Positions 50,087 to 53,260 of a stretch of 64,000 nt of DNA are shown piece by piece. Below the pieces are notes generated by a model. It was not told where the DNA came from and did not search any database. It was given only the letters and a program-made list of their open reading frames with translations. Positions within the stretch are counted from its first letter, which is position 1, and the number at the start of each line of letters is the position of its first letter. Both the position numbers and the translations under genes were made by a program. Source of the stretch: Anabaena sp. UHCC 0187 (lineage in GTDB: Bacteria; Cyanobacteriota; Cyanobacteriia; Cyanobacteriales; Nostocaceae). The DNA lies in the NCBI RefSeq assembly GCF_009712035.1, contig NZ_VILB01000014.1, positions 26,086 to 90,085 on the forward strand, read 5' to 3'.

Positions 50087-52657
50087 TCAGCAAACCCCTT
50101 TGATTAGTGGTAGTCTCAAGGTAAAAGTAGTCCCCTGTTCAAGACCAGGACTATCAGCTTGAATAGTCCCACCATGCAGTTCTACTAAATTGCGAACCAT
50201 TGCTAATCCCAAACCTAACCCGCCAAATTCTCTGCTATTTGAGCTATCTTCTTGACGGAAGTAATCAAATATGTAGGGTAAAAATTCTGGGCTGATACCT
50301 TTGCCTGTATCACTGACTGTGATTTGAGCATGAAAGTCAACACGCTCTAGCCTGACTTCTATTTGCCCACCATGAGGTGTAAATTTGACAGCATTGGATA
50401 ATAGATTCCAAACAATTTTTTGCAACCGGGTTGCATCACCATGAACTAGGCCAGTATTTGTTTGAATAATAGTTTGAATCTGAATTTTTCTATTTTGGGC
50501 TGCTAAATATAGCCTTTCTTCCACTGCTGAAATTATAGTAGCTAGATTAACTGGAGAAATATTCAAAATGTCTTCACCCTTGAGCATACTGGACATATCC
50601 AGCAAATTATCTATTAAGTCAACCTGTAATTTAGCATTGCGCTCAATAATGATCCCAGCTTTAGCCATTTCTTCTGGTTGTAATCTCTCTTGTTTCAATA
50701 AACTAGCCCAACCGATTATGGGGCTAAGGGGTGTCCGCAATTCGTGGGATACAACCGCCAAAAAGTTATCTTTGATCCGGTTAGCGGTTTCTGCTTGTTT
50801 TCGCGCCGCTTGTTCTTGTTGGAACAGATAATCCCGTTCTTTAATTGCAGCTTGCTGTTTGGTGATGTCATTGGAGCAGCCAACTATATGAGTAATGTTG
50901 CTATGCTTATCCCGGATGACCGAAAGCCGCAAGTTGATATAAACAATATCTCCTGATTTCGAGCGACAGGTAGCCACCTCTACCTCATGGCGACCCTTTG
51001 CCAATAGGGTTGGCATGATGTTTGTTTGGAGTTCAAGTGGATCGACAAAGAGAATACTAACACTCTGGCCAATCATTTCTGCCGCAGTGTAGCCATAATA
51101 TTTCTCTGCACTCGGATTCCAACTTTGAATAATGCCATTGATATCTTTAGTGATGACAACATCGTGAATTTCTTCGAGGATCTGAGATTGGAATTTTAAA
51201 ATGGCTTCTGCTTGCTTCCGTTTAGCTTCATTACGCTTTGCTTGAGTAATATCCCGTCCCTCTGGAATCAGCATCACTACTTCACCGACATCATTTCTGA
51301 GGGGTCGGATTGAGAAATCTATGGTGAGAATTTGATTATTTGCTCCCTGCACTTCTACTTCGTAGGAAATAAATTCACCTTGGGCAGCACGAGCGATCGC
51401 TTGCTTTAACTGATCCTGAGTTGCCTGGGAAATTTGCCAACAATAAACTTCCCAGATAGGTGTGTTGACCAAATCTGCCATTTCCAACCCAGTAAATTCC
51501 AAAGATGCTTGATTGAGTTCCAATACCATCCCTTCTAGGTCAAGTAGCCCTGTAAAGTGAAATCTTTGGTTGAAGATGGCACGATATTTACTTTCACTGG
51601 CTGCTAGTTCCTCTGTCCGTTTCTGTACCTTTTTCTCTAGTGAAGCATTGAGGTTTTGCAGATTTTCATAGAGTTCTCCTTGCTGAATAGCAATAGCAAG
51701 TTGTATAGAAAGTTTTTGCAGTAAATCGAGTTCTTGGGTCTGCCACTGCCGAGTTGTGCTGCATTGGTGAACAATAAGTAAGCCCCAAAGGATATGAAAA
51801 GAAGATTTAGAAACGCGCTGATCTTGCAAACAGCTAACTGGAAAATCATCCTCTGCTGCCGGTGGCTGATACTTAAGCAAGATCGGCATGACAATACTAG
51901 ATTTAACTTGAAATTGCTCTAATAAGTTGATATAGCACGGTGTTAATCCAGCATCATAAATATCAGAAATTGCCCGAATTTTGCCGCCATAATAGGCAGT
52001 TTCCTGAGTTTCCCGAAAGCAATTTTCCTGAATTTGATTATTGAGGCAAGCTGTCCATTCAGGTAAAACGGACTCAGCGACTATTTTGCCATTCATCTCA
52101 GGGTCAAACTGGTATATGATCACCCGATCAGCTTTGAGAAATTCCCGCACCCCTTGCACCGCTGTTGGCAATATATCCTCTAAACGAATGAACTGATGAA
52201 TGCGGAGGGCAATCTCTGCCAATAACTGTTGTTGCTGCCCCTGCATCTGCATATTCTGGATCATGCGGGTTTTCTCTAGCACCGTGCAAATGGCGCGGCA
52301 CAGTCCTTCAGGCGTGATTTTGTTCTTAACAATGTAATCCTGAACACCGCTTTTCATTGCTTGCACAGCAATCTCTTCGTCTCCCGTCCCTGTTAGAAAA
52401 ATTACTGGAATTTGCATCCTACCAAATTGCAACTGCAACAGGTTGATAAATTCCAACCCATTCATATCTTGTAGTTGATAGTCTAGAAGTATTAAGTCTG
52501 GCTGATTTTGAGCTATTTGCTTTAATGCCTCTAATCCTGATTTAGCCTCAGTGATATGATATGTAGCCATACTATCTTGACTGAGAAAGCGGCTATATAA
52601 TAACCAATCTACTGGGGAATCTTCGACAAACAGGATTTCGTAATGGGCAATTACCAT
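50087..52657 (-). CDS. Hybrid sensor histidine kinase: REC-GAF(CBCR-like)-PAS-PAS-HisKA-HATPase
   Basis: Protein of 856 residues. An N-terminal receiver domain (acceptor Asp in LILLDYQLQDMNG, about residue 57) is followed by a GAF domain of cyanobacteriochrome type (about 145-340). A coiled segment (LEKKVQKRTEELAASE) and two PAS domains (about 360-480 and 500-610) follow. HisKA has phospho-acceptor His638 in SHELRTPLSP; the HATPase has VHGDATRLQKIVWNLLSNAVKFTP and GGLGLGL. In the GAF, the canonical Cys is present (Cys241 in TPCY), but the following His is Tyr, so bilin binding is uncertain. The ATG lies 24 bases from the 3' end of the putative omega-RNA, with no clear ribosome site. Confidence 0.9.
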   Translation of the reverse strand: MVIAHYEILFVEDSPVDWLLYSRFLSQDSMATYHITEAKSGLEALKQIAQNQPDLILLDYQLQDMNGLEFINLLQLQFGRMQIPVIFLTGTGDEEIAVQAMKSGVQDYIVKNKITPEGLCRAICTVLEKTRMIQNMQMQGQQQQLLAEIALRIHQFIRLEDILPTAVQGVREFLKADRVIIYQFDPEMNGKIVAESVLPEWTACLNNQIQENCFRETQETAYYGGKIRAISDIYDAGLTPCYINLLEQFQVKSSIVMPILLKYQPPAAEDDFPVSCLQDQRVSKSSFHILWGLLIVHQCSTTRQWQTQELDLLQKLSIQLAIAIQQGELYENLQNLNASLEKKVQKRTEELAASESKYRAIFNQRFHFTGLLDLEGMVLELNQASLEFTGLEMADLVNTPIWEVYCWQISQATQDQLKQAIARAAQGEFISYEVEVQGANNQILTIDFSIRPLRNDVGEVVMLIPEGRDITQAKRNEAKRKQAEAILKFQSQILEEIHDVVITKDINGIIQSWNPSAEKYYGYTAAEMIGQSVSILFVDPLELQTNIMPTLLAKGRHEVEVATCRSKSGDIVYINLRLSVIRDKHSNITHIVGCSNDITKQQAAIKERDYLFQQEQAARKQAETANRIKDNFLAVVSHELRTPLSPIIGWASLLKQERLQPEEMAKAGIIIERNAKLQVDLIDNLLDMSSMLKGEDILNISPVNLATIISAVEERLYLAAQNRKIQIQTIIQTNTGLVHGDATRLQKIVWNLLSNAVKFTPHGGQIEVRLERVDFHAQITVSDTGKGISPEFLPYIFDYFRQEDSSNSREFGGLGLGLAMVRNLVELHGGTIQADSPGLEQGTTFTLRLPLIKGVC

Positions 52658-52681: not shown

Positions 52682-53145
52682 AAGATCTCGCGGTAAGTGG
52701 GAAACTCAGCCACAAAGCGTGCTGAGAGGGAAGCGACACGGGCGGTTTTAACCGCATTGAATCTTTTTCATTACCGCCTTGGAGTTGGGAAATTCGGGGT
52801 ACTCTTGTGATGTACTTTCAACGGGACAATTACCGATTCAAATTTCTCAACTCTGTACGCATAATGTTTTGCTCCAAAGAGCCTCCCATTTCTGGGGTAA
52901 TGTTAGCTTAGACCAGTTATTAGAGCTTGTTAGGCTTGCAACACTGTTCCAGTGACCTTAGAACTGTTTAATCACAAGCGACAGAGCCAGGAACTAGCTA
53001 CGCATTCGCTGGGTGTCGTGACTCAAATAACGGCTACCCTTTGACTCCCTTCGACTTCGCTCAGGGCAAGTTGCTCAGGGTGGTCTGGTCAGCACGGCTT
53101 GCTTGATTACTCTTGCAAGCCCAGTCCTTTTAAGGCTGGGTTACT
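52682..53145 (-). ncRNA. Putative stand-alone HEARO / IscB omega-RNA
   Basis: About 460 bases without coding potential but dense in perfect stems. On the minus strand, in order: CCCAGCCTTAAAAGGACTGGG; GCTTGC/GCAAGC; CCCTGAGCGAAGTCGAAGGG; GGCGG and GCGG pairing with CCGCCC; CTCAGC-N10-GCTGAG; then ACCGCGAGATCTT, followed directly by ATGA. HEARO RNAs end this way immediately before an ATGA/GTGA target and normally precede an HNH (IscB) ORF; cyanobacteria are known for stand-alone copies. Here no IscB ORF follows: a histidine kinase gene starts 24 bases on. Assigned from memory of the family layout; not searched. Confidence 0.6.
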
Positions 53146-53228
53146 GACGTCACAAGGTAAGAGTAGCATTTCACCCAAAACCCAAGTCAAATTCTACCAG
53201 ACTATCAATTCATATTACAGCAGTCACA

Positions 53229-53260
53229 CACTCATATATATATATATATATATATGAGTG
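53229..53260. repeat. Perfect 32-base palindrome with AT core
   Basis: CACTCAT and ATGAGTG flank an uninterrupted TA run, making a perfect palindrome downstream of the prolyl oligopeptidase stop codon. It may serve as an mRNA 3' hairpin or simply be a dinucleotide microsatellite. Confidence 0.8.

Follow-up and report, generated by a model that had tools for sequence, protein, structure and literature searches.

A stand-alone omega-RNA element with a structured RNA module in place of iscB upstream of a histidine kinase gene in Anabaena sp. UHCC 0187

The locus studied here raises the question of what a structured, non-coding stretch of about 460 bases is doing in front of a histidine kinase gene. 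It lies on the minus strand of the window, the 64,000-nucleotide stretch of Anabaena sp. UHCC 0187 DNA that was analysed. A sequence-only reading had taken all of it for a HEARO RNA, the omega-RNA of IscB, standing without its nuclease gene. IscB is the ancestor of Cas9. When the region was scanned with the HEARO covariance model (RF02033), minus-strand positions 53148..52897 matched the full model (1-211) with 133.8 bits against a gathering score of 83 (E 1.4e-27, and E 1.4e-29 in a local scan). This confirmed the identity of the RNA, while the extent claimed for it held only for the first 252 nt; the remainder, 52896..52682, is a second structured module and a right end. The whole element is 467 bp (53148..52682), with GTCAG at 53148 as its first bases, and its parts follow in the order guide flank, omega-RNA, structured module, right end and ATGA. 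The module is about 128 nt long (52896..52769) and occupies the place of iscB. The right end is 86 nt (52767..52682), ends CACTTACCGCGAGATCTT and was related by blastn to what follows iscB on its 3' side in autonomous elements, namely the two iscB genes of this genome and other iscB loci. The terminus ACCGCGAGATCTT at 52682 is flush against ATGA (52681-52678), as had been noticed earlier, and this ATGA is the putative target-adjacent motif (TAM). The fold of the 467-nt element gave a z of -2.87 against dinucleotide shuffles, with 1 of 100 shuffles equally low. A chance fold was ruled out by the Rfam score and the shuffles.

In the accessible text of PMC9640706 IscB uses a 5' guide of which 16 nt suffice, and TAM-proximal mismatches abolish cutting by OgeuIscB. 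By analogy with IscB the predicted 16-nt guide of the element would be the host flank directly 5' of the omega-RNA (minus strand, 53149..53164), just beyond 53148 and on the side where it had been expected. The last 15 guide bases plus ATGA were searched in the same genome with up to 3 mismatches. The search returned the element's own locus, whose 2 mismatches fall within the ATGA, and a site on contig 25 with 3 mismatches, leaving no second genomic target with 2 or fewer mismatches in this genome. Among the adjoining ORFs of the window there was no iscB directly downstream of the omega-RNA. No Y1 TnpA was found within the element, and contig 5, which holds the window, had none of the genome's 6 Y1_Tnp matches. 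The Rfam scans of the window returned no group II family (D5/D6 or D1-D4) in the element, and the module shows no sign of being a complete intron.

The module folds as two small hairpins followed by a closing stem, a long stem and a two-hairpin head. RNAalifold on an alignment of 29 sequences (A1) gave 31 pairs, of which 17 had at least one compensatory change, with both sides of the pair altered. In the named structure 97.5% of cells pair, compared to 38-44% with the partners slid, and the covariation score was reached by none of 500 shuffles; the shuffles do not keep the relatedness of the sequences and the slid controls do. The 98-nt core (alignment A3) had both-side changes in 15 of 24 pairs. 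The module is thus a structured, conserved and covarying RNA in place of iscB. A possible loop-loop contact between the two hairpins of the head, UGU with ACA, holds in 29/29 sequences. It is only suggestive because two of the three pairs never vary, the third becomes C-G in 6 sequences that are probably of one clade, and one slid control (-2) scores higher in covariation.

What the module is not could be narrowed down. Rfam gave no match above chance at 52769-52896, the matches seen there (E 0.5 on the plus strand, E 2.8) being far below gathering scores, and the module is therefore not a known RNA. A coding remnant of iscB or a small peptide was rejected as well: tblastn found no match to the two IscB proteins of this genome in 31 module loci, the conserved ATG is ACG or GTG in some copies, and the changes track base pairing. 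A covariance model of the module (R1) scored 167.2 bits at the window copy, whose sequence is included in the model.

A search of the genome for iscB and further copies, as had been proposed, gave 2 iscB genes and 9 HEARO matches, 7 of which are orphans. The only two RRXRR matches were on contigs 27 and 54, in agreement with a stand-alone element in the window. Both iscB genes pass NF040563 guided_IscB (472.8 and 439.3 bits, cutoff 175), both proteins contain RRXRR and HNH domains, and solved relatives exist for one of the two. By these tests intact IscB is available in the genome, and the suggested action in trans is plausible as far as the gene content goes. The module was present in all 7 orphans, in one only in part (63.8 bits), and the two iscB elements share only the omega-RNA and the right end with the orphans, which argues against a simple deletion derivative of an iscB element. 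Of the 39 omega-RNA pairs counted in 29 orphans, 22 showed both-side changes, and 96.7% of cells pair compared to 29-39% in slid controls. The orphan omega-RNAs retain their paired structure, which is consistent with the two intact IscB proteins using them in trans. One intact, full-length Y1 TnpA match was found in the genome, on contig 37. It belongs with another gene and not with the window element; the second ORF beside it was taken by eye for tnpB. The accessible portion of PMC9755519 describes few HEARO nucleases near TnpA, and that of PMC12286853 describes the Limnospira maxima HEARO as disordered without its protein IsrB.

Of 60 genomes, this one included, 41 had HEARO, 34 of them above the family cutoff, and 39 had RRXRR proteins. 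HEARO matches occurred with no RRXRR match in G009 (6 HEARO), G016 (3) and G028, G029 and G006 (1 each), so orphans persist without detectable IscB. Some RRXRR genes did not stand beside a HEARO match, among the matches listed for the 60 genomes. The best 48 of the 81 HEARO matches in genomes G012, G010 and G005 comprised 2 with iscB, 29 classed as mid (module present at least in part) and 17 classed as short (a different, shorter hairpin segment in its place), orphans thus outnumbering iscB-linked copies by making up 46 of these 48. The segment in place of iscB in short orphans (L126, L163 and others) is roughly 57-65 nt, and as these orphans do without the module it is dispensable for some of them. 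A set of 87 loci was also searched, made up of these 48 HEARO matches (27 from G012, 12 from G010 and 9 from G005), 8 loci of the Anabaena genome and loci of other genera, these last partly chosen because the module had already been found there, and with a few places duplicated. Twelve had iscB and none of the 12 had the module, which is therefore not simply what a deletion left behind. An omega-RNA tree took in 69 of 78 loci, 9 being skipped as their ends were not located, and its bootstrap was rough and unsettled. On this tree the module class needs 10 changes, at least 7 of them forced by well-supported branches. This contradicts one origin per orphan class, and modules and omega-RNAs look reshuffled. 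The module accompanies two deeply separate omega-RNA clades, again with rough bootstrap.

The insertion of the element in the leader of the kinase gene, proposed from the sequence, was borne out by the orthologous locus in G010, where the element is absent. The comparison of flanks with empty sites succeeded only in part: in G010 there are 6 additional bases between flank and ATGA, and in G004 no alignment was possible for the flank adjoining the site. The gene itself (minus strand, 50087..52657) was called a sensor histidine kinase from the ORF list and NCBIfam histidine-kinase matches, the best 25 of which were each below that family's curated cutoff. Of the hybrid kinase suggested earlier the kinase part is backed by these matches, and the N-terminal receiver domain was identified by eye only. 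The gene's ATG, which G010 and G004 have as well, follows 24 nt after the first base of the window ATGA. The window ATGA opens only six codons, and the window copy thus lies 24 nt upstream of a start codon and not on it.

A sister copy on contig 55 of the same genome was inserted exactly before an ATGA at hemA. With the element removed its flanks read ...CCAATTACCTATTTAAGAA joined directly to ATGAATATTGCA, matching the site in G009, and no target duplication was seen. As a sequence layout this copy combines a putative 5' guide, a putative 3' TAM and exact insertion. The 110 bases before the hemA ATG were element-free in 11 of 12 other genomes of the same genus, while G012 had another copy at the same base. 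The two hemA copies gave a bit score of 475 with each other and 671 and 508 with the nearest of the other copies compared. Each resembles other copies more than its counterpart, and judged by these scores they look like independent insertions. In G012 and G033 another gene, CPP1-like as judged by eye, is also preceded by copies, and these elements have no mutual blastn match at E 1e-10. Right ends were at ATGA in 54 of 58 orphan loci (the rest being CTGA twice at one place, GTGA and TAGA) and in 57/57 of a named set, with a query which itself ended in ATGA and so favoured such ends. When the query was used without ATGA, exact ATGA followed 42 of the 57 ends and most of the others were offset by 1-2 bases. 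The truncated orphan on contig 4 (L015), with no right end and only a partial module, is also found in G010 (L147). The ORF behind it is presumably dnaK, by eye. Its flanks are identical in the two species, so some orphan copies are probably old and vertically inherited.

Many sister copies sit on start codons, a feature which, like the bipartite build with a module in place of iscB, goes beyond what had been read from the sequence. Once repeated flanks had been dropped, 101 distinct sites were left, and at 43 of them an ORF of at least 60 codons begins with the ATG of ATGA. An ORF start was counted where the ORF had at least 60 codons and could be lengthened upstream to another start by no more than 10 codons. 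By this rule 18 of the 35 orphan copies of G012 and G010 that had ATGA at a scored right end sit on an ORF start. In a background of 400 kb from these two genomes 190 of 3529 ATGA sites (5.4%) start an ORF, or 132 of 1112 (11.9%) when only intergenic sites are counted, giving binomial p values of 2.7e-14 and 1.3e-8, respectively; the background relies on a simple ORF caller with a 100-aa minimum and covers two genomes, and the 101 sites were drawn from many. The named set had 17 of 49 copies on an ORF start (p 3.3e-10 and 2.7e-5), 19 of its 76 copies having no scorable right end. Eight of the 57 scorable copies had no located left end and were left out of this count; all eight open an ORF of at least 73 codons. 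A ribosome-site-like motif was present in the right end at 20/43 start sites compared to 14/58 others (p 0.02, one test with a self-made motif list).

Twenty downstream proteins with long ORFs were picked for naming with NCBIfam. The products named included MnmA, DapB, ThrS, CysS, AsnS, NdhA (NuoH), FolD, HemA, AroB, NdhD, an IscA-like protein and MreD. Three others (an aminotransferase, a response regulator and a glycosyltransferase) had matches below curated cutoffs, and the remaining 5 reached no family at the threshold applied. Neither the mnmA copy, whose left end was not located, nor the cysS copy, which fails the extension rule by one codon, is among the 43. The profile begins at residues 1-4 in MnmA, CysS, AsnS, NdhA, FolD, HemA and NdhD, indicating that the ATG is the native start, and later in DapB, ThrS, AroB and MreD. 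The start-codon position may come from insertion preference or from selection sparing such sites.

The module model R1 matched 22 of 291 cyanobacterial genomes and the core model R2 18 of 388, both counts including the genomes whose sequences built the models; these searches, like those for HEARO, scored at most about 10-32 candidates per genome. A pattern search of named genomes gave 75 stretches, from Dolichospermum, Anabaena, Nostoc, Cylindrospermum, Tolypothrix, Calothrix, Microcoleus, Tychonema, Lyngbya and others. Short partial module matches were seen in G005. When 19 module loci were scanned with Rfam, HEARO adjoined the module in 16; the remaining three were a locus with no HEARO match (L099), an orphan omega-RNA apparently split by an intron (L217) and a group II intron (L219). 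A second scan of 9 loci gave HEARO in 4, a group II intron in 2 and neither in L245, L259 and L262. Genome G163 has the module core in two group II intron copies (L219 and L228), where R1, built without them, scored 53.7 and 49.4 bits. R2 contains these intron sequences, so only the R1 matches count as independent there. A permissive scan puts the core of L219 inside D6 as a long insertion (58.2 bits), while by the ordinary scan D6 ends before the core (50.5 bits). In the other copy the core is inside D6 even by the ordinary scan (64.3 bits). The core is probably located inside domain 6 of these introns. No sense-strand ORF of 100 aa was found in the approximately 1.1 kb before the core of either copy. 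An ORF near one of them was taken by eye for psbD. Eight other genomes of the family of G163 had no module match. A weaker R2 match (44 bits) was located upstream of D5 in another group II intron, in G041.

The window feature is likely one copy of a non-autonomous RNA-guided element of the IscB type (IS200/IS605-like) which uses IscB in trans. The exact insertion of the hemA sister copy, the many sites, the module and the intact IscB elsewhere in the genome are the observed parts of this reading. IscB would act in trans by binding a transcript that spans the guide and the omega-RNA, and the complex would cut those copies of the site from which the element is missing or has been lost, at a guide match with ATGA. 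Repair from an element-bearing copy would then restore the element at the cut site, and a Y1 transposase acting in trans may move it. The module would most likely be a 3' domain replacing the iscB message, through which the guide RNA may gain a 3' end that is defined, stable or processed and may be kept separate from the following gene. The window element would have become part of the 5' leader of the kinase gene. Several results speak against this reading, namely the genomes with HEARO and no RRXRR match, the 6 additional bases in G010, the TnpA tied to another gene and the 17 orphans of the short class among the 48 HEARO matches.

The orphans could instead be dead leftovers, internal deletions of iscB elements which decay neutrally. 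Decayed copies do exist: the contig 4 copy shared with G010 lacks a right end and has a partial module, L245 retains no more of the omega-RNA than a 5' stub as judged by eye, and G005 has short partial module matches. Neutral decay would not be expected to leave both-side changes in 22/39 omega-RNA and 17/31 module pairs, far above slid controls, nor a module which is absent from all 12 iscB loci and goes with two deeply separate (if roughly bootstrapped) omega-RNA clades, and this explanation is quite improbable. An element acting mainly in cis, as a regulatory 5' leader of downstream genes with a vestigial guide function, would account for the 43 of 101 sites abutting an ORF start, for downstream genes such as hemA, aroB, thrS, cysS, asnS, mnmA, dapB, folD, ndhA and ndhD, and for the somewhat commoner ribosome-site-like motif at start sites. 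The named genes are unrelated to each other, however, the other 58 sites are not at such a start, 11 of 12 relatives do without an element at hemA, and the omega-RNA structure is maintained; a mainly cis-acting role is accordingly rather unlikely.

The module alone may also have a history of its own, as an independent RNA cassette, group-II-intron related or self-processing, taken up several times by protein-less mobile RNAs with no functional link to the guide RNA. The two G163 introns, with independent R1 scores and no 100-aa sense ORF, and the weak match upstream of D5 in G041 point this way. HEARO nevertheless accompanies the module in 16 of the 19 loci of one scan, the 8 relatives of G163 have no match and the D6 placement depends on one of two cmscan alignments, which leaves an independent cassette doubtful. 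Among the roles considered for the module a 3'-end or insulating domain is the first choice, with a cis-acting leader and an independent cassette as rivals. A wider proposal can be put forward tentatively: the module may be a new RNA domain marking protein-less mobile RNAs in cyanobacteria, replacing iscB in the orphans and sitting in loops of ORF-less group II introns. Both kinds of RNA could through it reach a common factor or share a step of 3'-end processing, and the elements could exploit the ATGA start codon as a landing site and so become leaders of essential genes.

Compared with the HEARO or omega-RNA of IscB (RF02033; OMEGA), the window element shares the RNA family, the 5' guide flank, the adjacent ATGA and, in the sister copy, the exact insertion. 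It differs in having no iscB in cis and a second structured RNA domain after the omega-RNA. Stand-alone omega-RNAs and non-autonomous derivatives of IS200/IS605 were reportedly described by Weinberg in 2009 and Altae-Tran in 2021. They resemble the present orphans as guide RNAs without their nuclease gene, and are not known to have the covarying module or the frequent start-codon position. MITEs are likewise short, multi-copy and without protein, but the window element carries a complete guide RNA. Orphan elements which keep a guide RNA without a nuclease would offer a natural example of guides working in trans, as CRISPR later came to do. Here they carry a conserved RNA domain where the nuclease gene would be, and they are often found on the start codons of housekeeping genes. 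This raises testable questions on the sharing of IscB between elements, the role of the module and rewired expression of essential genes. In the literature searched, with most subscription papers outside the search, no description of such a module or of start-codon landing was found, and the accessible parts of PMC8987985 and PMC13180657 held nothing further on orphans. In the accessible part of PMC8400943, 14 group I/II introns and HEARO RNAs of Limnospira were set aside as presumed intron remnants.

A number of further observations were made on individual copies. In genome G143 (L230:1618-4200; also L217) a group II intron seems to split an orphan omega-RNA. The intron encodes a reverse transcriptase-maturase-HNH protein. 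The 5' half of the omega-RNA in L217 matched HEARO with 34.2 bits, below the gathering score, and the halves were paired up by eye. IStrons are TnpB elements with a group I intron. The G143 arrangement is similar to them in joining an RNA-guided element to a splicing or structured RNA, while the module differs from IStrons in showing no sign of a complete intron. Splicing of the G143 intron would restore the guide RNA, which would make it an IscB-side counterpart of IStrons. In L245 (G510) only a 5' omega-RNA stub is fused to the module, and the ATGA after the element opens a reading frame, both as judged by eye. On the 5' side of the window element there is an AT-repeat palindrome, CACTCATATA...TATATGAGTG (53229-53260), and a similar AT-repeat stretch is also present at the element-free G010 locus. 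The palindrome CCCTGAGCGAAGTCGAAGGG, read from the sequence, lies in a peripheral stem of the window omega-RNA (minus strand, 53047..53066), largely inside bases extra to the HEARO consensus, where 28 bases are absent from the displayed cmscan alignment. L016, L017 and L018 likewise have short inserts, palindromic or repeated, within the periphery of the omega-RNA, as at window 53047-53066, and their position differs from copy to copy.
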